Shown here: positions 13,094 to 43,455 of the stretch, one piece after another
How positions within the stretch are numbered: position 1 is the first letter of the stretch
Layout of the letters: the number at the start of each line of letters is the position of its first letter
Virus record (IMG/VR): IMGVR_UViG_3300034073_004285
Location: 1 to 58,859 of that record
Direction: 5' to 3' (one strand)
From: a virus
DNA length: 58,859 bases
Notes under the pieces: generated by a model
What the model was told of the DNA's origin: nothing
Seen by the model: only the letters and a program-made list of their open reading frames with translations
Databases searched by the model: none
Translations under genes and position numbers: made by a program

Positions 13094-14479
13094 TTAAGAT
13101 ATTAATACCTTATCAAAGGTAAAACTCTTAATAAAATAAGTCCCAGTTCCCGATCTACAAATCAGTCGTTGCCCTGTTCTTTCTATCCGCAAACAACAGA
13201 TACTCCCCGGAGGGTCTGCTATAGCCGTATCATCTTCATAGAGTAGAAATGACTCTCCCCCAGTAGAGTCAAGTACTGATTCCTCGTCATTCTCCCAAAT
13301 AACAGACACTAGCACCCAGTAAAGAGCCAACCCTGAGACAGGGAAACTATCTGGGTCTAATGGATCGCTCCCCCCGTCAACCTCGTCCCCATCATTAACC
13401 CCGTCCCCATCGGTATCGGAGTTGTTTGGGTCTGTTCCTAACAAAATTTCCTCGTCATCGGTTAGCCCGTCGCCGTCTGAATCTAGAGAGCTAGCTACAC
13501 CGATCGCCGTAACAGCCATTCCCCCCAGATTGAAAATAACTTCATCCTCACTGTAGGCTTCAAAGCGAAAACTGATCCTATCCTCAGCAAAACGCACGTC
13601 TTGAACCGTATTAGTCTGCCAATCCTTGAAGCGAAACGGGATTGCCATGCCCCGACAGACACGAAACAATCTAATCAGATAATCCAACTCCGAACGGATC
13701 AAAAGCCGATCGCCAATGTCCCAACTACCAAGGGAAGAGTCCCAGCGGGATTTTCGTAGCTCAAATTCGGCGGCGTTGGCTTTGATGCCTGTGGAAAAAG
13801 ACGGGCCGCCTAGGGTGCCGAAATCGTAACCGAGATCGATCACCTCTGCCAGACTACCAGGAAGAGCGTCTAAATCAGGGTAAATGGTTGGCTCTACCCG
13901 AATTTCGGTGCAAGTCAATGGTGCCAGAGTAAACAATCCCTTGGCTTCAAAAGTAAAATCTATTTTGTCCTGCTCAAACCTTACTGGCACGTCAAACTCA
14001 AAATCAACGGCGATCGCCCCTGTTAGTTCGGTGGTGAGGACTCCCGTGGTGGTATCCACGCTCCAACCGTTTTCCTCTTCCACGCCGTCAACGTAAACCA
14101 CCACACTACCGGCTACCGGCTTGGTTATAGGTCTGGTTACCGTAGCAGTGGAAATTGAGTAAGTTTTCACCAGTTGCCACGTTTGCACCGTACCATTCCC
14201 CGTTCCTATCGATTGATTAGTCGCTTTGTAATCGCTCCAGTCCCTCAGCCGGAAGCCGATCGCCGCCCCTTTGACGGTGGCATGGAAAGCTAGTAGGGTG
14301 TTCAGTTCGGACTGGGTAACACGGCGATCGCCGAGCTGTGCCATAACTAGCGGCTGGCTCCACAATACCCGCCGTTGCTCCTGCCCATCGGATTGGGTGA
14401 GGACGGCAGTGTTGAACCGTGGGCCAAAGGTGGCTCCGTAGTTAATGCCCAAGTCTAATCGTTGCTCGTGAAACGTCAT
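13094..14479 (-). CDS. Tail tip protein with two DUF2460-like domains and a Ca-binding TSP3 repeat segment, 461 aa
   Basis: Residues 1-190 match the DUF2460 pattern found in siphophage and gene-transfer-agent distal tail proteins (NYGATFGPRFNTAVLTQSDG, then LLAFHATVKGAAIGFRLRDW). Residues ~215-315 repeat a shorter version (FGTLGGPSFSTGIKANAAEF, then RVCRGMAIPFRFKDWQ). After that, ~330-380 carry DxDxDGxxDxxE motifs such as DSDGDGLTDDEE and DTDGDGVNDGDE, thrombospondin type-3 calcium-binding repeats. The start overlaps the upstream stop as ATGA. Probably the distal tail ring joining tube and hub. Confidence 0.8.
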   Translation of the reverse strand: MTFHEQRLDLGINYGATFGPRFNTAVLTQSDGQEQRRVLWSQPLVMAQLGDRRVTQSELNTLLAFHATVKGAAIGFRLRDWSDYKATNQSIGTGNGTVQTWQLVKTYSISTATVTRPITKPVAGSVVVYVDGVEEENGWSVDTTTGVLTTELTGAIAVDFEFDVPVRFEQDKIDFTFEAKGLFTLAPLTCTEIRVEPTIYPDLDALPGSLAEVIDLGYDFGTLGGPSFSTGIKANAAEFELRKSRWDSSLGSWDIGDRLLIRSELDYLIRLFRVCRGMAIPFRFKDWQTNTVQDVRFAEDRISFRFEAYSEDEVIFNLGGMAVTAIGVASSLDSDGDGLTDDEEILLGTDPNNSDTDGDGVNDGDEVDGGSDPLDPDSFPVSGLALYWVLVSVIWENDEESVLDSTGGESFLLYEDDTAIADPPGSICCLRIERTGQRLICRSGTGTYFIKSFTFDKVLIS

Positions 14480-15336
14480 GCCGGTTGCTCGTCTGCTCTA
14501 GTGGTGACTGTATCCTGCCCCGGTAGTGCCGGTTCCCCCTGAAAATTATCTTTATTGCCGTAGACAGACCTACATGTGCCAAAGGTTTTATCACAAGCTC
14601 TAACGATTAAAGCCGTATCCCCTACAGTGACAGGGTTCGGTGGCGGGTTCAACAGCCGAATCGTGGTACCACTGGAGTAAATTACCGTGCCAGTGTAGCC
14701 GGTGTTGTCCCCCGTTAGCCACGTCAGGGTTCCTCCCAGAAAATAATTGTCAGCACGGCTCAGATTAGTGGAAAAATTCTTGTCACTGGTAACACCGGCG
14801 ATCGTGGCCGTCTCGGTAAAGTTGGCTAAATTGATCCCGCAGACCGAGTCACCGAACTGGTTGCGGCAAGTTTTACTGGTGACTGCCCCTTGTTTGGTTT
14901 GGAGCAAATCCTGCAAACCCCTCGCCTCCACCGTATAGCCCAAATCCGTTAGGCTCACCTTCCCCAACCGTCCCGACACCAGCGGCTCGTACTGGTAGGG
15001 AGAGTCAAAGGTGGTAGGCAAAACGAAAGGATTCACCCGAAACACAAAAACGGCGGCGTTATCGTAGGCTCCTCTGGCTATTTCCGCCTCTGTCACCGAG
15101 TCAGAAAAATAGGAAACCAGCGACACCTGATCAGCCTGTTTCTCTAAGCTCCGATCTATATCCGACGGCAGTATTCCCCCCTCGGCGTGATAGGTGACAC
15201 CGTCAATCACCAAAGGGCGATCGAACTCCGTTAAACCCACTACCACACCGTCGGTGCGGGTGATTCGCCAACAGCAAGGTAGGTAGTTGGAGGACTGGGA
15301 TAAGTAGGATAGGAACGGGGCTGTGTAAGATTTCAT
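14476..15336 (-). CDS. Tail assembly protein, DUF2163 / BR0599 family, 286 aa
   Basis: The start MKSYTAPFLSYLSQSSNYLP with CWRITRTDGVVVGLTEFDRP matches DUF2163, and CRNQFGDSVCGINLANFTE with a C-terminal RACDKTFGTCRS is the cysteine pattern of the BR0599 half. In gene-transfer agents and related siphophages this protein follows DUF2460 and links the distal tail to the hub. It has its own late promoter copy (15347-15358) and is translationally coupled to the DUF2460 gene. Confidence 0.88.
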   Translation of the reverse strand: MKSYTAPFLSYLSQSSNYLPCCWRITRTDGVVVGLTEFDRPLVIDGVTYHAEGGILPSDIDRSLEKQADQVSLVSYFSDSVTEAEIARGAYDNAAVFVFRVNPFVLPTTFDSPYQYEPLVSGRLGKVSLTDLGYTVEARGLQDLLQTKQGAVTSKTCRNQFGDSVCGINLANFTETATIAGVTSDKNFSTNLSRADNYFLGGTLTWLTGDNTGYTGTVIYSSGTTIRLLNPPPNPVTVGDTALIVRACDKTFGTCRSVYGNKDNFQGEPALPGQDTVTTRADEQPA

Positions 15337-17252: not shown

Positions 17253-20200
17253 CTACACATTCCGCAACTCAGAAGCCATTTCCCGCGCTAACGTCCGACT
17301 CTGACGATAAAAACGGCTTTCCTTGTCATTGATATTTACGTTAACCGTGTTAGTCGTTGCCCCCGCCATGCCCCGGCGATCGCCGTTATCAGGCAACGAT
17401 AGCCGAGGGGACTGGTAGGTGTTCAAGCCAGATAACAAACGGCTTTCTAGCCCAACGTAACCACCGTCAAAATAACCCGGCAAACGGTTTAACAAATTCA
17501 GCGTTGGCAACCCTATTTTTTGGGTTGCTTTTTTGTTGAGCACAAACTCCCCAGCGTGAACAATTCCCGCCGGTTGTAGGCGATCGCCGTTGCCCGTATA
17601 GCCGCCAGAAGCAAAACCTGGAATAGCACCTTCAAAAATGCCGCCAAATAAGCCATTTAACCCCTGTTGGATCATCTGGGAACCTAATTCAGTGATTGAC
17701 TGCAACAGGGAGTTAGTAAAAGCTTGGATTGCATTTTCGCCGTTAATCAGAGCGGTGAAAAAATTATTGAAGGCTCCGCTCAGCATGTCTCCCACGGTTT
17801 CGGAAACGTCACGGAATTGGCGATCAATCAACTGCAAGTCCTGTGCCAGAATCTCCGCTTCTCGGGAAACGAGGCTTTCTGCTAGTGCCGGATTTCCTTG
17901 ATATTTCTGCCGTAACTCAATGGCCTTTTGCTCAAACTCCGCTCTCCTAGCGGCGATCGCCTGTTGCTCCCTGATAGCAGTAGCCTCAAACGGATTAGTG
18001 GTGAGGTTGGCACGGTTTTCGGCATTCCGAGCCGCCAGATCCCGTTCTATGTTCTGTAACTCCAAGCGACGGTTTACATCATCAAAATAGGCTTGTTTTT
18101 GCCGGTTCTGGGAGGTTTCCAGTGTTTGCGCCAGCATAGTCTGCTTAGTGGTTTCATCGGTGATTTCCCTGTTGATTCTGGCTATTTCTGTCAGGGTTTC
18201 CAGTTCTATTTGTTGCAGTTCCAGTTTTAGCTGTTGCTCTATGTTGCCGTTGAAAACGGCGATCGCCAATTTCCCCTGAACGATTTCCAATTCCCTAGCA
18301 CGGAGTAGAGAGTCGTATTCGTAGTTAGCTGTTACGATTTGAGCATCCCGAATCTGTTCATGGTATTTCAGTTGTTTGGCCAACTCATCACCTTCTAGAC
18401 GGGTGGATAGTTCCAAAGACTGTTTTTTAAATTCAACATTGGCCCTTTCAATCTCGGCATCCCGTTTGAGTAAATCCTGACGGGTTTCCGCCGCCGCTTG
18501 CGCTTTCAATGCCGCCAATTCAGCGTCCTGATTGGTTTGCCGGATCGCCTGTTGCAGTTGGTTGAACTCTTGCATTTTGGCTCGTAGCGGTTCCAACTGC
18601 GCCTGATAGTTCTGTGTTTCTGCTAGTGCTTTTTGGTAAGCTGGCAAAAACTCAGACTCTAGGCGATCGGCTAATCCTCGCATATTCGCCGCCGCTTCTG
18701 GTGCAATCCCCAATTGAGAGGATGCCTCCCTCAGTGCCGGAGCAAAATCCGTCATGGTGGCGATCGCCTGTTTGAGAACAATTTCCCGTTCTGTCAGTTG
18801 ATTAGTCAACTGCCGCAGTTGGTTTTCCGCTTGACGGTTTTCGGCGGCGGCTTGACGGGATAGGGTTTGGGGTGAGTATTGATCGTCTAAATCCGCAAAC
18901 TGATTTTTGAGGTCTGCGACATCGTTACCCAGGTTGCGTAGCTCCTGATCCAATTGCACCCCAGCCCCAAGAATCTCGGCGGCGGAGTTAATACGAAAAT
19001 CCTTGAACTCCTGATTTAATAGCTCGGCGTTGCCATCCACTACTGCTTTTTTGAGTCCAACTAGGGTAGCGGTGTCGGACTTGGCCTTTTGAACGGCGGG
19101 ATCGGGAACGGTGCTAATGGCCGGGGGCGTTGCACTGGGTTGGTTGTAACTGACACTAGTGGCGACGGGTTGAGGTTTAGCACCGGGGGAAACCGTTTGG
19201 TAATTGACGTTTGCCACCCCCGATTGAATAGTTCCTAGTGCCTTGGCCGCACCATAACTCAGGTCTAGCCCCCGCCCACCATACTGGGCATCTGTCCCAA
19301 AATTTCCGGTATCCGTTACTCGCACAACCACCTGTTTCCCGTTGGCAGGGTTGGTGACTAGCAAATACGTGCCAAAGGGTATGGAGGGGCGTTTGTCGGT
19401 TTTGGATCGCCATGGAACAGCTACAGTCAATCCGTTCTCATCATAAACTTCACCGCTAGCTGTTTTCCTGCCGTGCCATCTAGTGGGATCTGTGGGTCCA
19501 CCATAGAAAGAGGCTTTAGCAGTTCGGGTTTTTCCAGTGGGTTGCATCCCAGACGGCGCATTCGCTACAGTTTGGGTTGGTGCCTTAGCCAGATTGGATT
19601 GGGTCGGGCGGGGCAACCCTGAAACCATCGAGGTCGGGTCAAAACTTTTGCCATTCCGCCATGTTTCAAAGTGCAAGTGCGGGCCACTACTTAATCGGTC
19701 TTTGGCGGAAATACTGGCAAGGCGATCGCCGGCTCCTACTCGTTGCCCTTCCTTGATATTTTTGGGGACAACGTGACCATAAACATAAGTAACGCCATCG
19801 TCGCCAATCACAACTATTTTGTGACTATTGACCTTTTTGTCCCATAGCTTAATTTCCTTAATGGTTCCCGCCGCTACAGAGTGAACTGCTTCCCCCACCG
19901 CCGCATTAAAATCAATCCCTTGATGTTTTCTTCGCCCCCCGTCACGATTAGCGCCATAGCGTTGTCCGCTAGATATTCCAACTTGCCCGTTAACTAGAGG
20001 ATAAAATCGCCCGCCACGAATAGCCGATTGGGTTGCCGTGGTTTGCCCCGCGCCATCCAACACCGCATTACCCATTCCCAACGCCGCTTTGAACGCCTCC
20101 ACCGCTTCAGTGGCTCCGTTCACCGATCGCCCAAAGTCGATCATCTGATTTTCCAGACTGTACTTCTCAGAACCAAATTGCAACAGGGAACTTTTTTGCC

Positions 20201-23200
20201 CGATCGCCTTTTCCATCAGTTGGCCCGCCTGATCAAAAATGCCCTGAATCGTGCCAATGATGCCATTCATGAACGTGTTGGAACCAGGGGCGATCGCCTG
20301 TTGAAGTTTTTGGCGGATGCGCCCGTATTTCATTTGGTTTTTGACACGTTCGATCTCTAACCTTGTTTCCTCAATTTGGAGGGTTAACTGCTGGAAGAAA
20401 TCCTGGATGCTTCGACTGAGATCAAAAAGCCCATTTTTCTGATCTAGTAAACTTTGCGCTAGTTGTTCCTCAGATTGCCCCAACTCGTCCTGAATTTCCA
20501 ACATCCGCTTGAGCATCACCGCTACGGATTTACGTTCCCCACTATCGGGACTAATATCATTAATTAGGCGATCGAGGGTGGCGGAGTTATTGAGGTCGGT
20601 TCCCTCCAACTTGGCTTGTTCTGCCAACTCCTCTAGCAGTTTGGCGGTTTTGGGTTCGGTGAGGTAACTGTTAATCTCCTCCACCTGTTTCCGCAAAAAA
20701 ACAATCCTTTCCTGAGTGGCTTGGGAGTCGAGGGAACCAAGCCCCAAACCTTGCACCGTTGTACCAGTGCCTTGGCTGGTAGCCTGACGCAAGAATTTTA
20801 CCCTGTTATTGGTGGCTTGTCGGTTCAGGTTTTCATTGAAAGCTGTGTACTGTTCGTTCAAATTGCGCATTTGACGCTCAAGAAAGCTTAACGATTTTTG
20901 CAAGGAATTAGAGAGATCATCATAACTTTGCTTGGTTTTTTCCAAGTCAGCCAATGCCGTTTCCATGGACAATCTCAGGCTGTCCTTTTGGCTTTCCGGT
21001 GCTTTGATATTGGCTAGATCTTCAAGCCCCTGTTTTAGTGTGGTAATGTCCTCTTCTAGGGCGGTGGCATAAGCACTGGTTCCCTTAAAGAGTCGTTCCC
21101 GCTCCTTGAGTAATTCCTGCTCCTCTTTAACGATTTTGCCGTATTGTTCGGTGTCTCCCTTAATTAAATTAGCCCGACGGGTACGGATGCGGTTAATCTC
21201 CTCGTCAATTTTTTTGACATCTTCCACCAATTTTTCAGCCCCGATTTGTTCTTGCAATGTGCTGTAGGCGTTAAAGACGGAATCGCCGCCTTTAATTAAA
21301 AAGTCATCAAATTGTTTTTCCCCAAGTGTCCGGAGTCCGACACCCTGGCGGATTGCTTCAAGGTTTGCATTTTTCCCCATTAACGCCAATGGTCCAAATC
21401 GTGCCAATTTCCCGATGTTTTGCCCCATCCCGGCTTCTGGATCAATCCCGACTTTTTCCGCTAGGGGTTTGATGTCAATCCCAAAGGGACTCCAAGACTC
21501 CTCGCTAACAATTCGCCCAGTAAAGAGTGTCTTGGTTTCTGATGCCGTGTTATTGAGTTCTGCCAAGGTTTTTTTCATCTCAATGGTGGCTTTTTTGGCG
21601 GTATCCAGTGATTTAGTAAACTCATCAAATCGATCTTGGGTAACATTAAATGCGGCGGTAACAGCGTCGATCGCCAACTGGATTAGGATGATTTGTCCCA
21701 AATAGGTACCGATTACAGGCAAAGCGGACTTTAAGACCGACATGGTAGCGGCGATCGCCGATTTGAATAAAGCGCCGGCGATCGCCGTTTTAGCGAAACC
21801 AGCCAATAGCGAGGCAGAGTTCCACGCCAGCACCAAGCCCAGTGCAGAAACTATCTGAATTACCGTAGGCATTGCCGATGTAAACCAGTCAATTAATGCG
21901 GACAGTCCGTTGAAGATCACCTTCGCCTGATCAAACCACGAACTTAGACTCCGCCGAAATTGCTCTAGTGAGTTCTGGTATCTGGCGATCGCCTGAGCAG
22001 TGGTTTCAGAACTATTGGCCACCACGGCGTTCTCGGCGGCGTACTGAGCGGCGATCTTAGGCATTACATCCGAGGCTAGTAACTCACCACTGGACATTAA
22101 ATCGTCTAATTGAGCCACACTTACTCCAAGGGAACGAGCCAGAGTACCTTGGAAGTCCAGAGCCGCAATTTCCCCTAATTGTCCCCGCACCTCTTCGGCT
22201 GACATTTTTTGCTTACTGAGGGACTGTTGCAGTGCCGCAAACATCCGCCCTTGCTCTTCGTTAGACAATCCCCGCACAGAGGCAGTCTGGGAAAATGCTT
22301 CAAAAATTTGTTGGGTTTGGGTTCCTTCTAACGCTGTCCCCCTAGTGGTGGAGAGTAAACCCAAATAGGCATCCTCAGCCGTTTTGAGGTCAACCCCCAG
22401 TTTTTTGGCGGTGTTAGCCACAAATTGCAAATTGGTTTCGGCTTTGGCTGAACTGCCAGAGATGGCAACAAAGGCACGATTAAGAGACTCGAAGGCGATC
22501 ACAGTGTCAAAAGCACCGGCGGCCATCGCCCCAAACCCTTGCACTGCCATGGTGAAAACGTTTTCCAAGATCATGGCCGCACCAAAGCCAAGGATTAGGT
22601 TTTTCAGTTGTCCGAAAATGGGGAACGCTTCCCCTACTTTGCTAAATAGTCCACTAAACCCTTCTTTGATTTTGTCGATACCTCCCGCTACCCCTTGATC
22701 CACCTGACGGATGAAGCGAACAATATTATTTTCGCCATCACCTCCCAGTTCCTCCATACCCATGTTCCAACCTTGCACTACTTGCAGGGCCATTTCATAG
22801 AACTCACGGGAGGGAGATTTGATACCTAGTGCCTTTTTAGCACCCTTGATCGCCGCTTCACCCAATGCATATCCAGAGTTTTCAGCCTCTTTTAGTTCCC
22901 CTTCGATGCCTTCGGTAAAGCCGTCGCTGGTGCTTTCGGCGATCGCCTGATAAACCCCAACAGGAGCACGTCCTTTTACGTTGGGATACCCCTTGACTGC
23001 CTCCCGTTGGAGTTTTGTCATCTCGGCGGCCTGATCTCGCCACATTCCCCGCCCTTCAAAGAACTTGACGTTTTGCGCCATTTTCTTGAACAGTACCCGC
23101 AGTTTTTCGGACTGTTCCACTAGTTCGGTACCGATCGCCTTGGAGATTTCGGCGTTACCTTTGGCGATCGCCTGACGGAAAGCGGCTTTTTTGTCGTCTA

Positions 23201-26200
23201 ATTCTTGGGAGATGTTGTCAATTTTGCTCCGTAGGGACTGGGCCACGTTTTCGCCACTGGCTTTTAGTTCCTCGATCTCGTCATCCAGTGCGACTTCAAA
23301 CTCTTCCCCTAGTTCGGTAGCCCACTGGTGAACGTAGGCCAGCCATCGTTCTGCTTGTTTCTGGGAGTCAATTGCCTCTTTAATGGGTTCGGTGATCTGT
23401 GGCTGTGGCTGTGGCTGTTCTTCCCACGGATCTGCAACTGCTGGCGTGGGTTTTACTGTAGCCGTTGCCTTGGGTTGCGGTTTGGGGGTGGGTTTCGGTT
23501 TGGCGGCGGCAGTGGCTTTTTCTTGTCCTTTGAATAGTCCGGCGATCGCCCCGGCAATGCCCCGTCCCCATTTCACCAGTTGCCCTAAAAGGGGAATGCC
23601 TTCCAACCAATCCAAGAAACCGTTAATTCGTTCTAGAATCGCTTTGCGTCCCTCTTCGTAGCCATCGGCAAAGCCTTGCCCCACGGCGGCGGCTGTTTGT
23701 TTAGCTTCTTCAGCCTGTCGTTTGGCTTGTGCTTTTAGTACCCTGAACTGTTGCGCCATTTCCTCGGCTTCAGCTCGGAAAAACCCCCGTCTTTGCCGTT
23801 CCTTCCCTATTCCTAGCTCGTTCCCATAGGCTTCTGCTTCAGCGGCGGCTATATGATCAAACCCTTGTTGATAACGGCGATCGGTGGAGTCGATACCCAA
23901 CTGTCCCATAAATGCCTGAGCGGAACGTCCGGCGGATTGTTTTACCCGTGGATCATCCATTTCCGCCCGTCGCCCCAGCACCCCTTGATAACGCAGATAA
24001 TCCTGTGGTTTATCAGCCCAACGGGAGCCCACACCAAAACGTGACTGCATGGCGTGGGTATATTCGTGGATCAGATCCTCTGGCAACTGTTCGCCCCGTT
24101 TGGGATCGATAACGATCTTGTTTTCTCGTACCTGATAGACCGCCGCCGCCGGACTGCCTGCTGGTAGTTGTTTTAAATTGGGGAAGTAGCCCTTGGCTTC
24201 TTCTAGTTGTGCAGTGGTGGCGGTTCCAGTTTTGCCAATTTCTTGGAATAGTTTGCGAACTTTTTCGGCTGGAGTGACTGCTTCACCTGTCACTTTAGGG
24301 AGGTCGTAAACTACTTCAATTACCGACTTAACGTAAGTTTCGAGTAGTTTCCGTTTTTCTTCTAGGGTTCCCTCAAATCCTTCTAATCCACTTTCTAGTC
24401 CGGCTATAATTTGCTTGCCGATCGCCTTGAATACCTTGGAGGGTGAGTCAATTTGTAATGCGTCTTCTGTTCCTTGGGATAACGCTTTACCGATCGCCGC
24501 CCCGGAATCTTTGACATCGCCAAGATCGCCTTCAATGGATTGGGTTAGAGAGTCGGTGACGTTGATGCCGATGTCAGAGAGGGCTTTTTTGTAGTTCTCT
24601 AACCCCTCCGTGCTCAATGCTTGTTCTGCGAGTTCAAACGCCTCGCTGTTAAAACTTTTTTTATTTGTATCGTATCCAAGCAGTGCAAAGTCAAAGACGC
24701 TTCTCAGGTTTTCTTTGTCTGGGGCATCTTCTGTTGCACGATCAAACTGTTTTTGTAATCTATTTCTGATTTTTTGTTGTTTTATTTGAGGTGCAACCGA
24801 TTCCGCATCAGCACGGAAAAAAGGACGCTTGCTAAAGCGTAATTCTTTGCGACGATTAAATTTAGATTCTATCCCCTCTGCGTTGGCATAAGCTTCTGAC
24901 TCAATAGATTCTGCAAAAGTCCTAAGTTTATCCCTATCTGTTGGGGGCGCACTGGGAAAGAGAGAAACATAGTGATCGGCAGACGACTTCACTCCTCCGG
25001 CAATTCTTGGAGGCATTGGTTTTTTTTGTAATTCTTTCCACCCCGAAAGCGACAATGACGGTGAAAAACGGGTTAACTCATCAACGGAATAATCTTCTTG
25101 GTTCGGAGGTAGTCCCTTTAAGTTAAATTGCAGCGCGTGAGTATATTCATGTATGAAATCATTGATTGACGCTTTTTCTCGTGCCAAAATTTTGTTGTTA
25201 AGAACATCATAAGAAGCTCCTGCTATCCCCCCGTTTGCTAGTATGCCCAACTGTGGAAAATAACCCTTAGCCTGTGTCAATTGTTCCGGTGTAGCATTGC
25301 CAGCTTTGCCAATTTCTTGGAATAGTTTTCTGACTTCTTGTGCCGGGGTTTCCGCCTCACCCATGACCTTTTTAAAGTCATAGACCAACTCAATAACCGA
25401 CTTAACATAGGTTTCTAACAGTTTTCGTTTTTCTTCTAACGTCCCTTCAAATCCTTCTAATCCCCCTTCTAATCCGGCAATAACATCCTTTCCGATCGCC
25501 TTATAAACCTTGGAGGGTGAGTCAATACCTAAAGCGTCTTCTGTGCCTTGGGCTAGGGTTTGTCCGACACTTTCGCCAGTGCCCCGTAACTTGCCCAATA
25601 ATCCCTCTAGGGAATCAATTAGGGAGTTAATCGAGTTATCGCCCATGGCGGCGAATTGGGTTTCTAGTTCGGCAATTAGCGGTTGTAAGGCTTCTCCTGC
25701 TTGGGATTTTAGCCCAGCAAAAATATCATTGACATTGCCCCGAATGTCGGCCACGCTGTCATCAAATCGGGCAGATAACGGGACGGGAACCCCGGCGTCG
25801 GTTGTGGTTACGGGTTTAGCGGATTTTATTTGGTTGGGGTTGAAAACCATCAAAGAATTTTGACGTTTGTTTCCCTCATACTTGTTTAAGTAGGAAAGGC
25901 TTTGATAACCAGCGCCTTGAATATCTTTCCATATTGCTTCTTCTACCAAATGCTTTTTGTTAAGCAAATCCTCTGCCGTAGTAGGAATTTGCTCGTCTTT
26001 TTCTTTGTCCAAAATCCATGCTGTTTGCGCGGCTTCTCTTTCTGCCTTTTTTTCAAACAACCAGGCATCCATCATCTTTGTTGAGATGGCGTTGTATTCC
26101 CCGCTAGAAAGTGACTGCTTTACACTGTCTAGGTTTGGTGTCTCTATTCCCTTGTTTCCTAATTCCCATGCAACAGTGTCAGACTGCCAATCATTTAAGT

Positions 26201-29200
26201 CGGCAACCTCAAGGGACTCTCCTTTGTTCACAAAGTATGGTTTAGCCTTGCCAAATTCCTTGGCTTGATCCTTTGTTCCAAAGTGGAAACCAAGATCCCT
26301 TATGTATGACTGATCAAACTCCGTAAAATTCAAGCCTTCCTTGCTTGCGTGATACCATTTTTGATTGCCATAAACTGAGTTTTTCGCCGTCTTATCTACC
26401 ATCCTCCTAGCCTTAGCGGTGTCCCCCGTCGCCACTGCCCGCAAATATTCCAAATCCTTGGCGATAGTTGCCTTAAGTTTTTCCACTTCAGCGGAAATCG
26501 CCTTACCCGCATCCCGTAGCGATTCCACTGCACCCATACCGAAGGAGTCGCCCGCATTTTTCCCTCGATCCTTCATCTCCTCGGAGGGGCTGTGCATATC
26601 AAGGGAGTCGTCAACGCCGGCTTTTAAAGCCTCACCTATGCCAACGCCCGCTCCCTTGAGTTCTGCTAATTGGGATTCGACGGCTTTGGTTAGGAAGTCA
26701 ACGGCGTTTTGAATGGAAACGTCTAGATTTGACTCGGTAAATGGATTTTTGAATGGATTACTGCCAGCAAATTGTTTTTTAGACAAAGACAACTGGCTAG
26801 GCTCAAAAGAAACGACCTCTTTTTCAGCATCTAGATAAGCCAAGGAGATCCCCAAGCGCTTCATTACCTTTTCAATCTCGCCTTCCAAGTCTTCGGCAAA
26901 TTCAGCACCGAACTTGATTAAGGCGATCTTGGTTCCTTTCTTGATCGTCGCCAGCAAGATAGTGGGAATATCTTGGTAATACTGCGCCTGCGATGCAAAA
27001 TTAGCGGCGACTTTTGGCGAAAGCGAAAAACTGGTGCTCCGTTGGATAACGTCATGTCCGCCGCCACGGAAAGCGTCATCATCTAGCTGATCGCCCCTTA
27101 GAAATCCTTTAGACCTGATTGCTTTCGCAGACCGTCCACTGGTGCCGTGATAGACGGTCAAGGGTTTATTTAGTGTCGCAATGTCAAAATACTTGTTTGC
27201 ATCTTCTAGCGCCGCTTTTAACTCTTTCAGTACCCCTTCCATCTGCTCAGAAACCACAGCCCGCGCCTCTGAGATAGTGGATTCCAAACCACTAACAAAG
27301 GAATCACCCGCCATCTCGCCCCTGTCTCTCATCTCCTCAGACGGCGAGTGCATATCGAGGGAGTCGTCAACGCCAGCTTTTAAAGCCTCACCTATGCCAA
27401 CGCCGGCAGACTGAACTCCCGCCAACTTGCCTCGAACCGAATCAATAAACGACTGAGCCGCATTATCGCCACTGTCCGCCAACCCCTCAGACTCCGCCAC
27501 CAGATCTGGCAACCCAACGGGAACCCGCCCCGCACCCTTGTCTCCCTTCAGGACTTCGTTTTGAATCCTTTTAACCTGATTGCGTTGGGATTGTAGCGAT
27601 TTTGTGCCCACATAATCAGAGGGGAGAGCCGCCAACAAGTCACCGTAAACCTGATCCACCGTTTGGGCATCGGCCAGTAATTTTTCGCCAATTTCCGCCG
27701 CCAATTGCCGATCGCCGTCTTGAACTGCCTGACGGTACGCTTTGACTTGTCCTTGCAGTCCTTTGTTGTATTGCGCCGCTGTATCCCGTTTTTGGGATAG
27801 GTTCATGTCCTTGAAATTGGGAATTAAGGTACGCACCGTCTCCCCAGCCGATCGCCGTGAAGAGTCCACAATTTCCGATAGGCGATCGGCGTACTGACGG
27901 GATAAGGCAGTTCCCTTTTTCCTGCCTCCCATTTGTTCCAAGGGAGCTTGCAGACTTTCTAAGCCTTGCCGCAACTGCTCTACAGTCACAGACAACCCCG
28001 CCATCCCCTCCTGCAGAACGGCGATCGCCTCTTGCAGTGGTGAAATATTCAGAGGATCAGCATTGACGGCATCCAATGAACTGGACAACAGAAGCAACTC
28101 GGAACGAAGCTGATCCAACTCGGGCCCGTTCAGCCCTTCAATGGAAGACAATAACTCTTTGGCTTGTTGTGACGCTTCACCTGCCAACCGTTCCTGAACA
28201 GCATTAGGGGTGGTAGGTCTTAGCCTGCTAGATAATGCCCCAGCCACAGCACTGTGTTTTAGGTATTGCGGCAGTTCATGCCCACCTAGCTTGGCGTTTT
28301 CCTCGTCTGTTAATCGTTGGGTTTCTGGCAATAGATCAGGGCGCATCACCTGAACTGCCATATCCTGCCCAACGAAATCCTTTTCCCCCAAGAAAGACTG
28401 GTAGTTTTGCTGGTTAAATCCCACCCCTAGATCGGGTGTAGCAATACCAAAGCCAGCCACGTCTGTGATGCCAGCTTGTTGCAAAATAGCCAGAGCTTCT
28501 TCCACCACCAAACCGCCAAAGCTATGGCCAGCCAAACTGATTTTGGCTTGGGGATTTTGTCTTTTTGCGGCGATCACCTGCCCCGCTAACTGGCTGGCGT
28601 CTGGGTTATAACCCCGCACCAGCATTGAGTCAATTTGTCCAACGGCAAAGCGTAGCCCCTGTAAGCCGTTGATAATATTCCCGATGGTAGCGTTATCAAC
28701 CTTTGCCTTTTTCAGCGCACCGTAAACACCTTTTATCGTCTCCATATCAAGGGAAACATCGGTGTTAGGGTTCTCCACCGTGATGGTTTTAACGTTCTGA
28801 ACACCAAACTCATTCTTGATCTCCCTGCCGACGTAGCTACCGGCCCGCCCCTGCCTCCGAGCTACACCGCCAACCGTGAAGACGTTCTCCCTGTTTTCAT
28901 CTAGCTTGATTTTTTCGGCATTATCAGCAACCAGTAGCGCATCCCTCAGTGCGGCGTTTTGTGTTTGCCAACTACGCCGAGCCTTGATCGCATCTTTAAC
29001 TCCCGCCACTGGGTTGGTAGCAAAGTTCCCAACACCATAACCTACTGATTCGGTGTTAATGCCGATATTTTTCTTGGTTCCCCGATCAAACCCCTTAACA
29101 AACTGGTTCCCCAGCCCCTGAAATAAACCCTGTCCGACTTTCTCTAAAAATCCAGTCTGAATCCGTAGCGGTTGGCGGCGGATCTCACTGGCGATCGCCT

Positions 29201-29552
29201 TGGGAAGGGTTTTAACTAGGCGATCTAAATCGACGGTAACAGTGATGCCGTTTTTCTTGCTATTAGTATTGACAGTGGTATTGGCTTTGTCAGATCCCGA
29301 TTTTACGGCCAACCCAGCCCGCAACCGCTCCAAACCAGAATCAGTGCGCTTCTGGAAGGAGACAGCAGCATTGATAGCCCCTTCTATAACCTCCAACTCC
29401 GAGCGAATATCGATCAGTGTGGCATTTTGATCTAATTGTGCGCCATACCGTTGGCGACCCACGCCCAACTGCCTAGAGCCAAGGGAGCCGGTTGTATTTC
29501 TGAGCCGTTCAACCGCATCAACGACTGCCACAAAACCACGATTATCAACCAT
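17253..29552 (-). CDS. Giant multidomain tape measure protein, 4,099 aa
   Basis: Sets tail length and carries wall-degrading and other enzyme-like domains. ATG 29552 is chosen over TTG 29561. Canonical part: TMP N-terminal domain ~2335-2530 (DLKTAEDAYLGLLSTTRG, SAEEVRGQLGEIAALD), membrane segments ~2560-2640, coiled coils ~2700-3080 and 3500-3900, and the usual TMP C-terminus (GFASGGYTGNGDRLQPAGIV). Wall enzymes: M23/LytM endopeptidase ~3195-3310 with HQGID and GPHLHFE; RlpA-like double-psi barrel ~3345-3457 with VRVTDTGNF and GRGLDLS. The first ~2,250 residues are extra: alpha/beta-hydrolase-like GHSFGG (~342-347), ADP-ribosyltransferase-like regions (~798-925, ~1065-1245), HEYTHALQ (~1468) and HEYTHAMQ (~1830) zincin-like motifs, with SPS repeats near 737, 988, 1347, 1703 and 2247. 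Family roles are known; activity here is inferred. Confidence 0.92.
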   Translation of the reverse strand: MVDNRGFVAVVDAVERLRNTTGSLGSRQLGVGRQRYGAQLDQNATLIDIRSELEVIEGAINAAVSFQKRTDSGLERLRAGLAVKSGSDKANTTVNTNSKKNGITVTVDLDRLVKTLPKAIASEIRRQPLRIQTGFLEKVGQGLFQGLGNQFVKGFDRGTKKNIGINTESVGYGVGNFATNPVAGVKDAIKARRSWQTQNAALRDALLVADNAEKIKLDENRENVFTVGGVARRQGRAGSYVGREIKNEFGVQNVKTITVENPNTDVSLDMETIKGVYGALKKAKVDNATIGNIINGLQGLRFAVGQIDSMLVRGYNPDASQLAGQVIAAKRQNPQAKISLAGHSFGGLVVEEALAILQQAGITDVAGFGIATPDLGVGFNQQNYQSFLGEKDFVGQDMAVQVMRPDLLPETQRLTDEENAKLGGHELPQYLKHSAVAGALSSRLRPTTPNAVQERLAGEASQQAKELLSSIEGLNGPELDQLRSELLLLSSSLDAVNADPLNISPLQEAIAVLQEGMAGLSVTVEQLRQGLESLQAPLEQMGGRKKGTALSRQYADRLSEIVDSSRRSAGETVRTLIPNFKDMNLSQKRDTAAQYNKGLQGQVKAYRQAVQDGDRQLAAEIGEKLLADAQTVDQVYGDLLAALPSDYVGTKSLQSQRNQVKRIQNEVLKGDKGAGRVPVGLPDLVAESEGLADSGDNAAQSFIDSVRGKLAGVQSAGVGIGEALKAGVDDSLDMHSPSEEMRDRGEMAGDSFVSGLESTISEARAVVSEQMEGVLKELKAALEDANKYFDIATLNKPLTVYHGTSGRSAKAIRSKGFLRGDQLDDDAFRGGGHDVIQRSTSFSLSPKVAANFASQAQYYQDIPTILLATIKKGTKIALIKFGAEFAEDLEGEIEKVMKRLGISLAYLDAEKEVVSFEPSQLSLSKKQFAGSNPFKNPFTESNLDVSIQNAVDFLTKAVESQLAELKGAGVGIGEALKAGVDDSLDMHSPSEEMKDRGKNAGDSFGMGAVESLRDAGKAISAEVEKLKATIAKDLEYLRAVATGDTAKARRMVDKTAKNSVYGNQKWYHASKEGLNFTEFDQSYIRDLGFHFGTKDQAKEFGKAKPYFVNKGESLEVADLNDWQSDTVAWELGNKGIETPNLDSVKQSLSSGEYNAISTKMMDAWLFEKKAEREAAQTAWILDKEKDEQIPTTAEDLLNKKHLVEEAIWKDIQGAGYQSLSYLNKYEGNKRQNSLMVFNPNQIKSAKPVTTTDAGVPVPLSARFDDSVADIRGNVNDIFAGLKSQAGEALQPLIAELETQFAAMGDNSINSLIDSLEGLLGKLRGTGESVGQTLAQGTEDALGIDSPSKVYKAIGKDVIAGLEGGLEGFEGTLEEKRKLLETYVKSVIELVYDFKKVMGEAETPAQEVRKLFQEIGKAGNATPEQLTQAKGYFPQLGILANGGIAGASYDVLNNKILAREKASINDFIHEYTHALQFNLKGLPPNQEDYSVDELTRFSPSLSLSGWKELQKKPMPPRIAGGVKSSADHYVSLFPSAPPTDRDKLRTFAESIESEAYANAEGIESKFNRRKELRFSKRPFFRADAESVAPQIKQQKIRNRLQKQFDRATEDAPDKENLRSVFDFALLGYDTNKKSFNSEAFELAEQALSTEGLENYKKALSDIGINVTDSLTQSIEGDLGDVKDSGAAIGKALSQGTEDALQIDSPSKVFKAIGKQIIAGLESGLEGFEGTLEEKRKLLETYVKSVIEVVYDLPKVTGEAVTPAEKVRKLFQEIGKTGTATTAQLEEAKGYFPNLKQLPAGSPAAAVYQVRENKIVIDPKRGEQLPEDLIHEYTHAMQSRFGVGSRWADKPQDYLRYQGVLGRRAEMDDPRVKQSAGRSAQAFMGQLGIDSTDRRYQQGFDHIAAAEAEAYGNELGIGKERQRRGFFRAEAEEMAQQFRVLKAQAKRQAEEAKQTAAAVGQGFADGYEEGRKAILERINGFLDWLEGIPLLGQLVKWGRGIAGAIAGLFKGQEKATAAAKPKPTPKPQPKATATVKPTPAVADPWEEQPQPQPQITEPIKEAIDSQKQAERWLAYVHQWATELGEEFEVALDDEIEELKASGENVAQSLRSKIDNISQELDDKKAAFRQAIAKGNAEISKAIGTELVEQSEKLRVLFKKMAQNVKFFEGRGMWRDQAAEMTKLQREAVKGYPNVKGRAPVGVYQAIAESTSDGFTEGIEGELKEAENSGYALGEAAIKGAKKALGIKSPSREFYEMALQVVQGWNMGMEELGGDGENNIVRFIRQVDQGVAGGIDKIKEGFSGLFSKVGEAFPIFGQLKNLILGFGAAMILENVFTMAVQGFGAMAAGAFDTVIAFESLNRAFVAISGSSAKAETNLQFVANTAKKLGVDLKTAEDAYLGLLSTTRGTALEGTQTQQIFEAFSQTASVRGLSNEEQGRMFAALQQSLSKQKMSAEEVRGQLGEIAALDFQGTLARSLGVSVAQLDDLMSSGELLASDVMPKIAAQYAAENAVVANSSETTAQAIARYQNSLEQFRRSLSSWFDQAKVIFNGLSALIDWFTSAMPTVIQIVSALGLVLAWNSASLLAGFAKTAIAGALFKSAIAATMSVLKSALPVIGTYLGQIILIQLAIDAVTAAFNVTQDRFDEFTKSLDTAKKATIEMKKTLAELNNTASETKTLFTGRIVSEESWSPFGIDIKPLAEKVGIDPEAGMGQNIGKLARFGPLALMGKNANLEAIRQGVGLRTLGEKQFDDFLIKGGDSVFNAYSTLQEQIGAEKLVEDVKKIDEEINRIRTRRANLIKGDTEQYGKIVKEEQELLKERERLFKGTSAYATALEEDITTLKQGLEDLANIKAPESQKDSLRLSMETALADLEKTKQSYDDLSNSLQKSLSFLERQMRNLNEQYTAFNENLNRQATNNRVKFLRQATSQGTGTTVQGLGLGSLDSQATQERIVFLRKQVEEINSYLTEPKTAKLLEELAEQAKLEGTDLNNSATLDRLINDISPDSGERKSVAVMLKRMLEIQDELGQSEEQLAQSLLDQKNGLFDLSRSIQDFFQQLTLQIEETRLEIERVKNQMKYGRIRQKLQQAIAPGSNTFMNGIIGTIQGIFDQAGQLMEKAIGQKSSLLQFGSEKYSLENQMIDFGRSVNGATEAVEAFKAALGMGNAVLDGAGQTTATQSAIRGGRFYPLVNGQVGISSGQRYGANRDGGRRKHQGIDFNAAVGEAVHSVAAGTIKEIKLWDKKVNSHKIVVIGDDGVTYVYGHVVPKNIKEGQRVGAGDRLASISAKDRLSSGPHLHFETWRNGKSFDPTSMVSGLPRPTQSNLAKAPTQTVANAPSGMQPTGKTRTAKASFYGGPTDPTRWHGRKTASGEVYDENGLTVAVPWRSKTDKRPSIPFGTYLLVTNPANGKQVVVRVTDTGNFGTDAQYGGRGLDLSYGAAKALGTIQSGVANVNYQTVSPGAKPQPVATSVSYNQPSATPPAISTVPDPAVQKAKSDTATLVGLKKAVVDGNAELLNQEFKDFRINSAAEILGAGVQLDQELRNLGNDVADLKNQFADLDDQYSPQTLSRQAAAENRQAENQLRQLTNQLTEREIVLKQAIATMTDFAPALREASSQLGIAPEAAANMRGLADRLESEFLPAYQKALAETQNYQAQLEPLRAKMQEFNQLQQAIRQTNQDAELAALKAQAAAETRQDLLKRDAEIERANVEFKKQSLELSTRLEGDELAKQLKYHEQIRDAQIVTANYEYDSLLRARELEIVQGKLAIAVFNGNIEQQLKLELQQIELETLTEIARINREITDETTKQTMLAQTLETSQNRQKQAYFDDVNRRLELQNIERDLAARNAENRANLTTNPFEATAIREQQAIAARRAEFEQKAIELRQKYQGNPALAESLVSREAEILAQDLQLIDRQFRDVSETVGDMLSGAFNNFFTALINGENAIQAFTNSLLQSITELGSQMIQQGLNGLFGGIFEGAIPGFASGGYTGNGDRLQPAGIVHAGEFVLNKKATQKIGLPTLNLLNRLPGYFDGGYVGLESRLLSGLNTYQSPRLSLPDNGDRRGMAGATTNTVNVNINDKESRFYRQSRTLAREMASELRNV

Positions 29553-29795
29553 TGCCCCCAAGCCCCTTTAGTGTTTTTTGAATGCTTTTTTTGTCCCCTT
29601 GAGCGGCCACACTAGTCAGAATTAATTGACTACGCCTATCCTCCGCCTCCAACTCCATAGCGCACTCCAAAAAGAGTTTGATTTGGGGGTAGGTGTAATT
29701 CCTAATCTCTGACCAGCTATGACCGGCCCTGATTAATCGGCTGATTCTAATACCCCAGTCTTCGGCGTTTCCGCTTTGACCTCCTCTTTTTTGGG
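29545..29795 (-). CDS. Tail assembly chaperone, -1 frameshift extension (gpT-like)
   Basis: The frame lacks a start codon of its own and is entered by a -1 shift from the upstream chaperone gene. Its product begins after the A-run as RGGQSGNAEDWGIRISRLIR, continues AGHSWSEIRNYTYPQIKLFL and ends 8 bases into the tape measure gene. A short helical domain with Y-T-Y-x-Q and a frame overlap just before the tape measure gene is the lambda gpG-T arrangement. It gives about 80 extra residues. Confidence 0.82.
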
Positions 29796-36582: not shown

Positions 36583-37929
36583 TTAAGTGCCGATTACTGT
36601 CCAACCTTTTGCAGTTGCAATTGACGGATCATCTGCTGTGGTTCCCCAATTTCCAGTGACGGTAATAGTGGGAGCCCCTGTTGCCACAGGCAGGTTAGAA
36701 TAGATCTCGTTCAACGCATTAGGTCCCAGAGAGCAGGAGGCTAGATTGACGCTTTGATTGCTGGGGAAGATAACGTCTACCTTTGCTAGGGAAAGACATA
36801 AATTGAACATATTGCTAAAGTTAGTCCCTAGTGAAGTATTTAATTGTGGAATACTTTGTAGGGAAAAACATGCATTGAACATAAGAGTAAAGTTAGTCCC
36901 TAGTGAAGTATTTAATTGTGGAATACTTTGTAGGGAATAACAGTAACTAAACATACTGCTAAAGCTGGTTCCCAATGAAGTATTTAATTGTGGAATACTT
37001 TGTAGGGAATAACAGTAATTAAACATATTAGTAAAGTAAATCCCTAGTGAAGTATCTAATTGCGGTATACTTTGTAGGGAATAACATGAAATGAACATAT
37101 TGCTAAAGTTAGTCCCTAGTGAAGTATTTAATTGTGGAATACTTTGTAGGGAATAACATGAATTGAACATATTGGTAAAGTTAGTCCCTAGTGAAGTATC
37201 TAATTGTGGAATACTTTGTAGGGAATAACATGAATTGAACATATTGCTAAAGTTAGTCCCTAGTGAAGTATTTAATTGTGGAATACTTTGTAGGGAAAAA
37301 CATGCAATGAACATATTGCTAAAGTTAGTCCCTAGTGAAGTATCTAATTGCGGTATACTTTGTAGGGAATAACAGCTACTAAACATATTAATAAAGTTAG
37401 TCTGACTATTACTTCCCACCCATTCAAACTGCTCTAGTAAACGATGCACCCAACTGCCGCTATACAATGTCATTGTTCCAGAGTTATTGAGTGCTAACCG
37501 GATGTCTAACCATTGGGAGGACTCCCCATTCACCAACCCAGTTTGATTGTGTTTAACACTTAAATTAATGTTGCTTAAATTTTGCCCTGATTGGGGCGTA
37601 ATAATTACTAGAGCCTGCTTATAGCCTCTAGTAGTCAACGTACTGTCAAGGGCAGGTGCGTTGTAGTTATAGTTGCGATAAGCGGTTACTCCAGAAGCGT
37701 AATTCTGGATCGTGCCGTCCCCCCAGTCAACGGTATAAGCCCCCGTGGCGGTGACGGTGATAAAATTAGACTCGTTATCAAATACAGCGTAGAGTCCGTA
37801 GAATATTTGGTCAGTGGCAGTGACGGTTGGCAGTGGGAGCCAGTCACTAGGGCGTTGGTAGCTCGTTGAAGACGTTGAGTTACCAGACAAAAGAATCGAG
37901 CCTAAATAAAGTTTTCCTGTAGTTGGCAT
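36583..37929 (-). CDS. Tail fibre with BspA-like leucine-rich repeats, 448 aa
   Basis: N-terminal ~160 residues are a beta-rich region with a WGDGTI PKD-like motif. Residues ~185-385 are eight 24-residue units of the form CYSLQSIPQLDTSLGTNFSN plus MFxx, the BspA/DUF285-type surface repeat. The C-terminus (~400-448, LGPNALNEIYSNLPV) is typical of LRR fibres. Such repeats in phage fibres bind surface receptors. Stop of the upstream fibre gene overlaps the start (TAATG). The repeat is visible at DNA level as 72-bp units. Confidence 0.82.
   Translation of the reverse strand: MPTTGKLYLGSILLSGNSTSSTSYQRPSDWLPLPTVTATDQIFYGLYAVFDNESNFITVTATGAYTVDWGDGTIQNYASGVTAYRNYNYNAPALDSTLTTRGYKQALVIITPQSGQNLSNINLSVKHNQTGLVNGESSQWLDIRLALNNSGTMTLYSGSWVHRLLEQFEWVGSNSQTNFINMFSSCYSLQSIPQLDTSLGTNFSNMFIACFSLQSIPQLNTSLGTNFSNMFNSCYSLQSIPQLDTSLGTNFTNMFNSCYSLQSIPQLNTSLGTNFSNMFISCYSLQSIPQLDTSLGIYFTNMFNYCYSLQSIPQLNTSLGTSFSSMFSYCYSLQSIPQLNTSLGTNFTLMFNACFSLQSIPQLNTSLGTNFSNMFNLCLSLAKVDVIFPSNQSVNLASCSLGPNALNEIYSNLPVATGAPTITVTGNWGTTADDPSIATAKGWTVIGT
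36796..37372. repeat. Eight tandem 72-bp repeats in the BspA-like fibre gene
   Basis: Conserved units containing TAGTCCCTAGTGAAGTAT recur every 72 bases with scattered changes. Most changes fall at unit ends (positions coding for the last four residues) and at Asp/Asn. Boundaries are approximate. Confidence 0.85.
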
Positions 37930-42154: not shown

Positions 42155-42166
42155 TAAATTTATACA
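42155..42166 (-). promoter_or_regulatory. Late promoter variant (protease-capsid gene)
   Basis: Minus-strand TGTATAAATTTA at the end of the homing endonuclease gene. It keeps capsid transcription independent of the endonuclease gene. Confidence 0.6.
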
Positions 42167-43455
42167 AGCCGCTTGATTTCCCGCTCTATCACGGCGATCG
42201 CCTTTTTGTAGGGCAGGTTTGGGGTAAAGCATTCCGTATCGCCACCACGCAACAGCAAAGGGAATAACATGGCTGGCTGTCTATAATGCCGAAACCGCTT
42301 CAATACCTTTTGCTCTATCTGGTATGCGTAAATGCCGGGGTCGATCTGCCATTCGTACCTTTCTTTGACAAATAATGCGTCTTTCCCAAACCTATCTTCT
42401 ATCGTGCTGTTAGTAATCCCAATCTTCCAAAATTCAGCAAAATCTTTTTGGAACCGAATAAAGTAAAGTATTCCAGGCTTGCCAAAGTTAAATCCATACT
42501 CCGCGCACTTGCAACACCCCTGCCCTCTTAGATGATTATTGGCTACCTGCTCAAATACTCCGTGTTCTGGGCAAATAACTTTAACCTTTTCTTTGTTGCT
42601 AGAGTACTCAACCAATGAATAGTCATATCGGTTGCCATGGACAATTACGGCTTCAGATATAAAATCCTCTGTTGTTTTCTGCGCCACCCCGGCACATTTA
42701 ATACAGCCACGCCCTTTAACGTGATCTTTTGGTGTTTGCTCAAATACACCATGATCGGGGCATATTATTTTGACCTTTTCTTTGTTGCCATAATACTCAA
42801 CCAATGAGTAGTCGTACTTGCCTCCATGAACTATGTTTGATTCATCAATAAATTCTTCAGTCGTCTTTTTCGCTGTCCCACCACATCTTGCACACCCATA
42901 ACTCATATGCTCACATGGAGATTGTTCAAATACGCCATGATCGGGGCATATTATCTTAACCTTCGCTCTTGCATTAATGTATTCAGTTAATGAGTAGTCG
43001 TACCTATATCCATGCACCGATTGCGCGGACTGAATAAAATCGTCTGTTGTTTTTGTTCTGGACTTAGCCCTTTGAAGTTTTCCACACTCGGTGCATCCTT
43101 TCCCCGCTAAATGACCGTTTGGCGTCTGGGCAAATATCCCATGATCGGGGCATATTATTTTGACCTTCTTGTTAGACTTTATATACTCAGCCATTGAATA
43201 GTCATACTTGCACCCGTGAACTAATAACGCATCGCGGATAAAGTCATCGGTATTTTTCCCTTTCCCTTGGCACTTAAGACACCCACTCCCTTGCAAGTGT
43301 CCATTGGCACACTGTTCAAACAATCCATGATCGGGGCAGATTATTTTTACCTTAAACTTTGCCTTGACATATTCAGTCTGGGAATAATCGTATTTGTGAC
43401 CATGTACGGATTGCGCCTCTTGAATAAATTGCGCTGTAGTCTTACACTTTTTCAT
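42160..43455 (-). CDS. Homing endonuclease-like protein: five zinc-finger-like repeats plus GIY-YIG-like end, 431 aa
   Basis: Five repeats of about 62 aa, each with HGxKYDYS...EY, then KVKIICPDHGxFxQ and a GCxxC pair, the pattern of DUF723-type treble-clef fingers. Residues ~325-431 begin PGILYFIRFQKDFAEFWKIG and continue ITNSTIEDRFG, matching the GIY-YIG/T5orf172 nuclease fold (xxLYxI...WKIGxT). This is a free-standing homing gene between portal and capsid, a usual site. Fingers should set target binding; activity not proven. Confidence 0.78.
   Translation of the reverse strand: MKKCKTTAQFIQEAQSVHGHKYDYSQTEYVKAKFKVKIICPDHGLFEQCANGHLQGSGCLKCQGKGKNTDDFIRDALLVHGCKYDYSMAEYIKSNKKVKIICPDHGIFAQTPNGHLAGKGCTECGKLQRAKSRTKTTDDFIQSAQSVHGYRYDYSLTEYINARAKVKIICPDHGVFEQSPCEHMSYGCARCGGTAKKTTEEFIDESNIVHGGKYDYSLVEYYGNKEKVKIICPDHGVFEQTPKDHVKGRGCIKCAGVAQKTTEDFISEAVIVHGNRYDYSLVEYSSNKEKVKVICPEHGVFEQVANNHLRGQGCCKCAEYGFNFGKPGILYFIRFQKDFAEFWKIGITNSTIEDRFGKDALFVKERYEWQIDPGIYAYQIEQKVLKRFRHYRQPAMLFPLLLRGGDTECFTPNLPYKKAIAVIEREIKRLV

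Follow-up and report, generated by a model that had tools for sequence, protein, structure and literature searches.

The window, that is, the whole 58,859-nucleotide stretch of viral DNA considered here (IMG/VR record IMGVR_UViG_3300034073_004285), carries on its minus strand a gene for a giant tape measure protein (TMP) in which a recognizable tail ruler is preceded by an N-terminal extension of approximately 2,250 residues, one that contains a series of enzyme-like segments. The reading favored here, at a probability of roughly 0.6, is that this extension is a ‘polyvalent’ payload of host-directed enzymes, which has been built into the tail ruler and which would be ejected along with that ruler. 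A TMP is normally read as a ruler, a plug, or an entry channel. The modules that relatives of the protein have at equivalent positions, likewise bounded by repeats, are different ones, however, and the TMP thus looks like a carrier of swappable enzymes. A preliminary description, made from the sequence, had already proposed a TMP with an effector-like extension of this length. As an observation this is confirmed, i.e., there is one open frame and a TMP_3 match (expectation value, E, 1.5e-22) following the extension, while the interpretation is partly supported.

Layout of the Tape Measure Protein

The frame consists of 4,102 codons as counted from a TTG start, from which all residue numbers used here are taken, or instead 4,099 amino acids as counted from an ATG at position 29552, the latter being preceded by an AAAGGGG-type ribosome site. 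Its features are as follows, along with the neighboring baseplate genes, all of them on the minus strand:

17253..29561, minus: giant TMP gene, a single uninterrupted open reading frame (ORF)
28992..29561, minus: N-terminal segment (residues 1–190), conserved in L002–L005 by BLASTP
28212..28901, minus: cutinase-like serine esterase (residues 221–450), DUF676 at E 2.6e-6, above the cut-off; cutinase by profile and fold
27462..27911, minus: helical module (residues 551–700), common to close relatives
27192..27452, minus: SPS repeat 1 (SPS at 739), several matching stretches in TMP families phrog_4372/5493/1686
26727..27191, minus: cassette D1, ADP-ribosyltransferase (ART)-like (residues 791–945), by motifs plus a weak ART-PolyVal match (E 0.14)
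26412..26696, minus: SPS repeat 2 (SPS at 991)
25797..26384, minus: cassette D2, ART-PolyVal-like (residues 1060–1255), ART-PolyVal at E 1.4e-5, below the cut-off
25407..25649, minus: SPS repeat 3 (SPS at 1348)
24642..25406, minus: cassette D3, zincin-type metallopeptidase, putative (residues 1386–1640), HEYTHALQ at 1471, ESEAY at 1554
24327..24578, minus: SPS repeat 4 (SPS at 1706)
23682..24326, minus: cassette D4, zincin-type metallopeptidase, putative (residues 1746–1960), HEYTHAMQ at 1832, EAEAY at 1908
22722..23324, minus: second helical module plus SPS repeat 5 (residues 2080–2280; SPS at 2249)
21945..22514, minus: TMP_3 domain (residues 2350–2539), above the cut-off
19635..19928, minus: M23 peptidoglycan peptidase domain (residues 3212–3309), E 1e-18
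19200..19481, minus: RlpA-type DPBB domain (residues 3361–3454), E 2.1e-12; TIGR00413 at E 1.4e-17
13094..15336, minus: baseplate genes, DUF2460 and phiJL001 Gp84 / BR0599 hub, downstream of the TMP gene

The ruler is identified by TMP_3 (80.7 bits vs. a cut-off of 41) and by TIGR02675 (tape_meas_nterm; 32.7 vs. 21.35). Wall-cutting domains, i.e., M23 and DPBB, are found toward the C-terminus and the enzyme-like segments N-terminally, with a domain scan of the protein returning neither MuF nor DUF4157. Given the genes found downstream, the TMP can be placed within a tail cluster that has gene-transfer-agent-type baseplate genes. It had been described as among the largest of TMPs, and this holds locally, that is, against the 294 to 3,854 amino acids (median 1,585) of the 21 frames with TMP_3 above the cut-off in 386 cyanobacterial genomes.

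Within the extension, the esterase and a helical module are followed by SPS repeats that alternate with D1 through D4. This alternation of five repeats with four effector-like segments, which the preliminary description did not include, is strict, and would have a chance of 1 in 126 were the nine elements randomly ordered. Three of the four modules also differ from the repeats in guanine-plus-cytosine (GC) content, with D1 (0.456), D2 (0.418), and D3 (0.418) lower by 8–12 points than SPS repeats 1 and 2 (0.54); the esterase is at 0.51.

A Constant, Cutinase-Like Esterase

What had been described as an alpha/beta-hydrolase-like region has stood up well, that is, on the basis of the DUF676 match, a conserved triad, and a cutinase-type fold match. 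The triad consists of Ser in GHSFGG (345), Asp in EKDFVGQ (393), and His in GGHELPQ (426), with the Ser and the His invariant in 12 aligned copies and the Asp present in nearly all. A profile built from the 12 relatives matches the cutinase 4psc (E 1.1e-5). The esterase core was predicted by AlphaFold, as part of a 1,048-residue job, at a predicted local distance difference test (pLDDT) score of 74–92, and its best fold matches are cutinases (probability 0.92–1.00), with E only about 0.06–0.1, owing to the poor quality of the long model over most of its length. Mycobacteriophage lysin B is also among these fold matches. For scanning, a six-row alignment of the esterase proved too loose.

The esterase is in fact the recurrent, constant part of this TMP family, a point which the preliminary description missed. 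Among the 386 cyanobacterial genomes there are eight strong esterase matches (E<=3e-16), found in seven frames of 1,585–3,854 amino acids, six of which have TMP_3 while the seventh is a MuF protein. The latter, from a cyanobacterial prophage (G074; L064:4338-9272, minus strand), joins the esterase family to MuF, a head protein. The same contig also has, about 12 kb away, a separate TMP_3 frame of 1,587 amino acids. Aphanizomenon phage CL131 has four esterase copies, divided between two genes that immediately precede the TMP gene. These genes, gp047–gp048 (L006:5563-11987), display CKxGKxCGDxCIPK motifs between the esterase copies, and the last of the copies lacks the Ser. With esterases thus occurring in TMP frames, in a MuF protein, and in these CL131 genes, the family is tied to virion proteins, and chiefly to TMPs.

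Variable Modules

The two zincin-type segments, D3 and D4, have profile matches below the cut-off (Tox-MPTase4, E 0.019, and DUF6782, E 7.6e-5, respectively). Two HExxH motifs are far more than chance would provide, with 0.0085 expected in shuffles of the same protein and none of 2,000 shuffles having two, but D3 and D4 are an internal duplication (43% identity) and the two motifs therefore are not independent. The HExxH of the two metallopeptidase-like motifs that had been described, along with a downstream Glu, is kept across divergent relatives, i.e., both are invariant in a 4-sequence as well as in a 6-sequence alignment. Essentially nothing beyond HE..H and E..A is invariant across the six zincin-like segments of the latter, which were taken from four phages or prophages.

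The ART-like segments are recognized by VYHGTSGRS at 803 in D1 and by KWYHASKEG at 1068 and MVFNPNQIKS at 1238 in D2. All of these motifs, along with GHSFGG and the two HEYTHA(L/M)Q sequences, are found where the preliminary description had placed them. As tblastn with D1, D2, and D4 against 50,697 phages returned no match, nor did D2 and a D3/D4 profile against the 386 cyanobacterial genomes, assignment of these segments rests on weak profiles, on motifs, and on analogy with the modules that relatives have at equivalent positions between repeats. The ART call especially, as read from sequence, is the weakest of the segment assignments. Kinship with polyvalent proteins, which had been suggested for these domains generally, is uneven: It is indicated for D4 and D2, both below the cut-off, is weak for D1, and is firm only for the module of a relative, L004 (E 4.7e-15).

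ART-PolyVal itself does occur in cyanobacterial genomes, where its strong matches are mostly in frames of about 2,700–3,070 amino acids in genomes of about 2 Mb. One such long protein, from an approximately 2-Mb Cyanobacteriota genome (L091:3403-12000), has ART-PolyVal domains and apparently is an ordinary polyvalent protein rather than a TMP. Polyvalent-type proteins therefore are not absent from Cyanobacteriota.

Relatives, and Module Exchange at the Repeats

A search of IMG/VR with the whole extension returned no close relatives. Four IMG/VR records (L002–L005) nevertheless are about 49% identical to the window in the TMP_3 region, and the esterase alignment retrieved eight more relatives, i.e., L009, from a Xenococcus metagenome-assembled genome, and L013–L019. 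The window’s TMP_3 region is matched by 11 of these 12 records, and those frames among them that look complete (2,925–3,971 amino acids) have the same order of parts, esterase included. From the genome_contigs collection, the TMP_3 alignment retrieved no relatives and the esterase alignment one, and the L004 ART, as used against viral_contigs, matched only L004 itself and L003.

Other members display other contents. In L005, a zincin is flanked by SPS repeats. A closed cyanobacterial chromosome of 8.59 Mb (L087) encodes a 3,411-residue TMP with two zincins. A further cyanobacterial TMP of 3,853 residues (L066:573-12131, minus strand) has a kinase-like segment at residues ~996–1140 that includes VIKFP, HGDLHLNN, and PIDFG, with a match to ABC1 just above the cut-off (E 5.1e-5). 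The modules of L002 and of L014/L018 were left unclassified by a profile scan. The possibility of an assembly or fusion artefact was ruled out, as a layout of this kind recurs in independent contigs and in the closed chromosome, and the effector-like domains thus truly lie inside of the TMP frame.

That modules are gained, lost, or replaced at SPS repeats, which the preliminary description also missed, is seen upon comparison of near-identical relatives. The DNA of L017 and L018 is 99.0% and 97.3% identical to either side of a 1.1-kb module which is present only in L018, where it sits between SPS repeats. The corresponding L017 junction is a chimera in which one repeat supplies the left part and the following repeat the right, which is what would remain after recombination between repeats. 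L002 and L004, similarly, share 8.2 kb at 99.1% identity, as far as an SPS repeat at residue ~1344, past which their modules differ: L002 has its unclassified module and L004 an ART-PolyVal domain that is above the cut-off. Beyond that same repeat L003 equals L004 (99.5%), while before it L003 has a different esterase variant and a zincin. (In L003 the TMP frame is also split into two overlapping frames, at L003:7376-7560, which is either an assembly error or a real break.) The proportion of nonsynonymous differences (pN) is 0.14–0.36 on esterase and module, with synonymous sites saturated, a constraint like that on the TMP_3 domain.

A Proposed Payload, and Its Alternatives

How might such a protein function? 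The C-terminal ~1,850 residues would serve in tail assembly, with M23 and DPBB breaching the cell wall. The N-terminal ~2,250 residues would supply the constant cutinase-like esterase plus variable modules, here two ART-like and two zincin-like, with those modules that lie between SPS repeats shuffled via recombination between the repeats. Upon infection the TMP would exit the tail either together with the DNA or ahead of it, and the payload, packaged as part of the ruler, would follow the wall-cutting part into the cell. There is precedent for such exit, as the TMP of RcGTA is ejected into the host periplasm (PMC7296036) and that of roseophage R4C into the host envelope (PMC10276861), and both have tails whose baseplate is of the type encoded here. 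If the TMP leaves the tail at infection, then the payload should reach the cell envelope or the cytoplasm. There the esterase may act on lipids or on other ester bonds, while ART, zincin, and kinase modules may modify or cleave host proteins, with zincins perhaps also severing payload from ruler.

A number of points weigh against this reading. In D1 and D2, by hand alignment, the H-Y-D triad that is expected on strands 1, 2, and 5 instead reads H-S-E and H-H-N, respectively, that is, D2 has Asn where the strand-5 Asp is expected (relative L004 reads H-Y-E), and the activity of the window’s own ARTs therefore is doubtful. Of the two ART-like regions that had been described, D2 is indicated by a profile match below the cut-off and D1, weakly, by motifs, with the triad speaking against both. 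Checks of catalytic residues and of predicted structures had been suggested as well, of which the former favors the esterase and the zincins though neither ART, and the latter the esterase core. AlphaFold modeled D1 and D2 with low confidence within the 1,048-residue job, leaving the ART calls without structural support, and a zincin model from a 4-row alignment was uninformative (pLDDT 44, with no fold match), leaving that fold unsupported. Several relatives (L009, L013, L062, L063, and L065) have the esterase without a recognizable module, so that modules are dispensable. It is questionable, too, how well a folded domain of ~200 residues would fit within a narrow tail lumen, and the gene could have internal translation starts or its product could be processed prior to packaging.

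An alternative is that the protein is a toolkit for envelope entry, in which esterase, M23, and DPBB would open the envelope while DNA is being delivered and the remaining modules would help on the spot, by cleaving proteins of the surface or the periplasm, instead of acting against the host from within. M23 and DPBB do share a chain with the esterase, which is the most constant part, is cutinase-like, and has lysin B among its fold matches, and the RcGTA TMP does go into the periplasm (PMC7296036). The esterase family is also found, however, on the MuF protein of L064, and MuF is a head or portal protein and hence outside of the tail tip, which speaks for a role beyond that tip. In addition, ART- and kinase-type modules require nicotinamide adenine dinucleotide (NAD) or adenosine triphosphate (ATP). 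Both are scarce in the periplasm. Purely local action at the envelope consequently is viewed here as unlikely, if still deserving of attention.

Less probable by some distance is that the zincins are not effectors but mainly cut the TMP itself, releasing payload or maturing the ruler. D3 and D4 do lie between the ART-like modules and TMP_3, a suitable place for a cut, and processing by zincins has been proposed for polyvalent proteins (PMC5512222). Many relatives with the same layout (L002, L009, L013, L014, and L062–L066) nevertheless show no zincin motif, implying that zincin processing is not general; such processing in any case is compatible with, rather than exclusive of, a payload. It is quite improbable, finally, that the insertions are inert, i.e., folded domains which TMP repeats tolerate and which contribute only bulk. 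Modules do come and go between near-identical strains, and the window’s ART-like segments do deviate at catalytic positions. Yet the catalytic residues of esterase and zincins are the best-conserved positions across otherwise weakly similar copies, esterase and module are under amino-acid constraint similar to that seen for TMP_3, and new modules again are often enzyme-like. Host-directed payload accordingly is retained as the preferred description of the extension.

Comparison with Known Systems

The closest known systems are polyvalent proteins, which are closest in idea, MuF toxins, which are the closest phage carrier, and the TMP-like effectors of injection systems. Within polyvalent proteins, ART and zincin are among the commonest domains, often with more than one zincin per protein, and injection with DNA has been proposed, with paucity in cyanobacteria also stated (Iyer et al. 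2017, PMC5512222; the text of that study contains none of ‘tape measure’, ‘lipase’, or ‘hydrolase’). The window protein likewise has unrelated enzyme domains within one polypeptide (esterase, zincin motifs, M23, and DPBB), but its carrier is the tail ruler and its constant part is a cutinase-like esterase.

With MuF toxins, a head or portal protein has a variable C-terminal part that usually is followed by a small ORF for putative immunity (Jamet et al. 2017, PMC5576092). Here too enzyme domains are fused to a virion protein, and the L004 ART resembles one that Microbacterium phage Schubert carries as a MuF fusion. The variable part is instead N-terminal and internal, however, and in a tail protein, and no small same-strand ORF directly follows the window’s TMP gene.

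Sle1 and Tme are TMP-like, reconfigurable effectors of actinobacterial contractile injection systems, with DUF4157 within or beside them, and some actinobacterial phage TMPs possess host-modulating motifs at their C-termini (PMC13277306). The protein considered here similarly would be a TMP-like, reconfigurable carrier of functional domains, for which loading within the tube and ejection, known for Sle1 and Tme, may be supposed; it differs in being a phage TMP that has its modules between ruler repeats. TMPs that carry cell-wall hydrolase domains (M23, SLT, or NlpC) are familiar, with those domains serving entry through the wall. The window TMP resembles these in its M23, DPBB, and repeat units, but its ART-like, zincin, and cutinase-like domains, as well as the kinase-like domain of its relative, are outside of that set. 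Gain and loss of TMP repeat units has been noted (Belcaid et al. 2011, as cited in PMC7296036). A literature search, with most subscription journals outside of its coverage, found no description of such effector modules inside of a phage TMP.

Other Genes of the Window

Head, packaging, and replication genes are also present, and the host, judging from relatives, probably is a cyanobacterium. A PADLOC run returned nothing convincing. A ParB-N domain is fused to an N6/N4 DNA methyltransferase at 4811-6793 (minus strand), with a C5 methyltransferase nearby at 1468-2526. Between portal and capsid genes, at 42160-43455 (minus strand), is a protein with tandem Cys/His repeats of ~60 residues (VHG.KYDYS...KVKIICPDHG), which perhaps is a homing-endonuclease-like insert. 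At 36583-37929 (minus strand) there are about eight repeats of ~24 residues (SLQSIPQLNTSLGTNF.NMF), resembling surface-repeat proteins.

Implications

More broadly, cyanobacterial phages may use the TMP as a general, polymorphic carrier of effectors, with a constant esterase and with modules (ART, zincin, kinase, and others) that are traded at ruler repeats, a generalization that stands at about even odds. If true, then this would add to head-injected polyvalent proteins and MuF toxins a further means by which virions carry effectors, and it could explain why polyvalent proteins have been reported as scarce in cyanobacteria. L017 and L018 provide a natural experiment in this regard, as their frames are 97–99% identical apart from one module that only L018 has, and the modules generally would represent a natural design of what a tail lumen tolerates. 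Very large TMPs, which usually are filed under ‘tail length’, would deserve re-reading for hidden enzymes. Every copy of the TMP within a tail would deliver a dose of effector at first contact, that is, before phage gene expression, and the make-up of that dose would change by recombination between ruler repeats.
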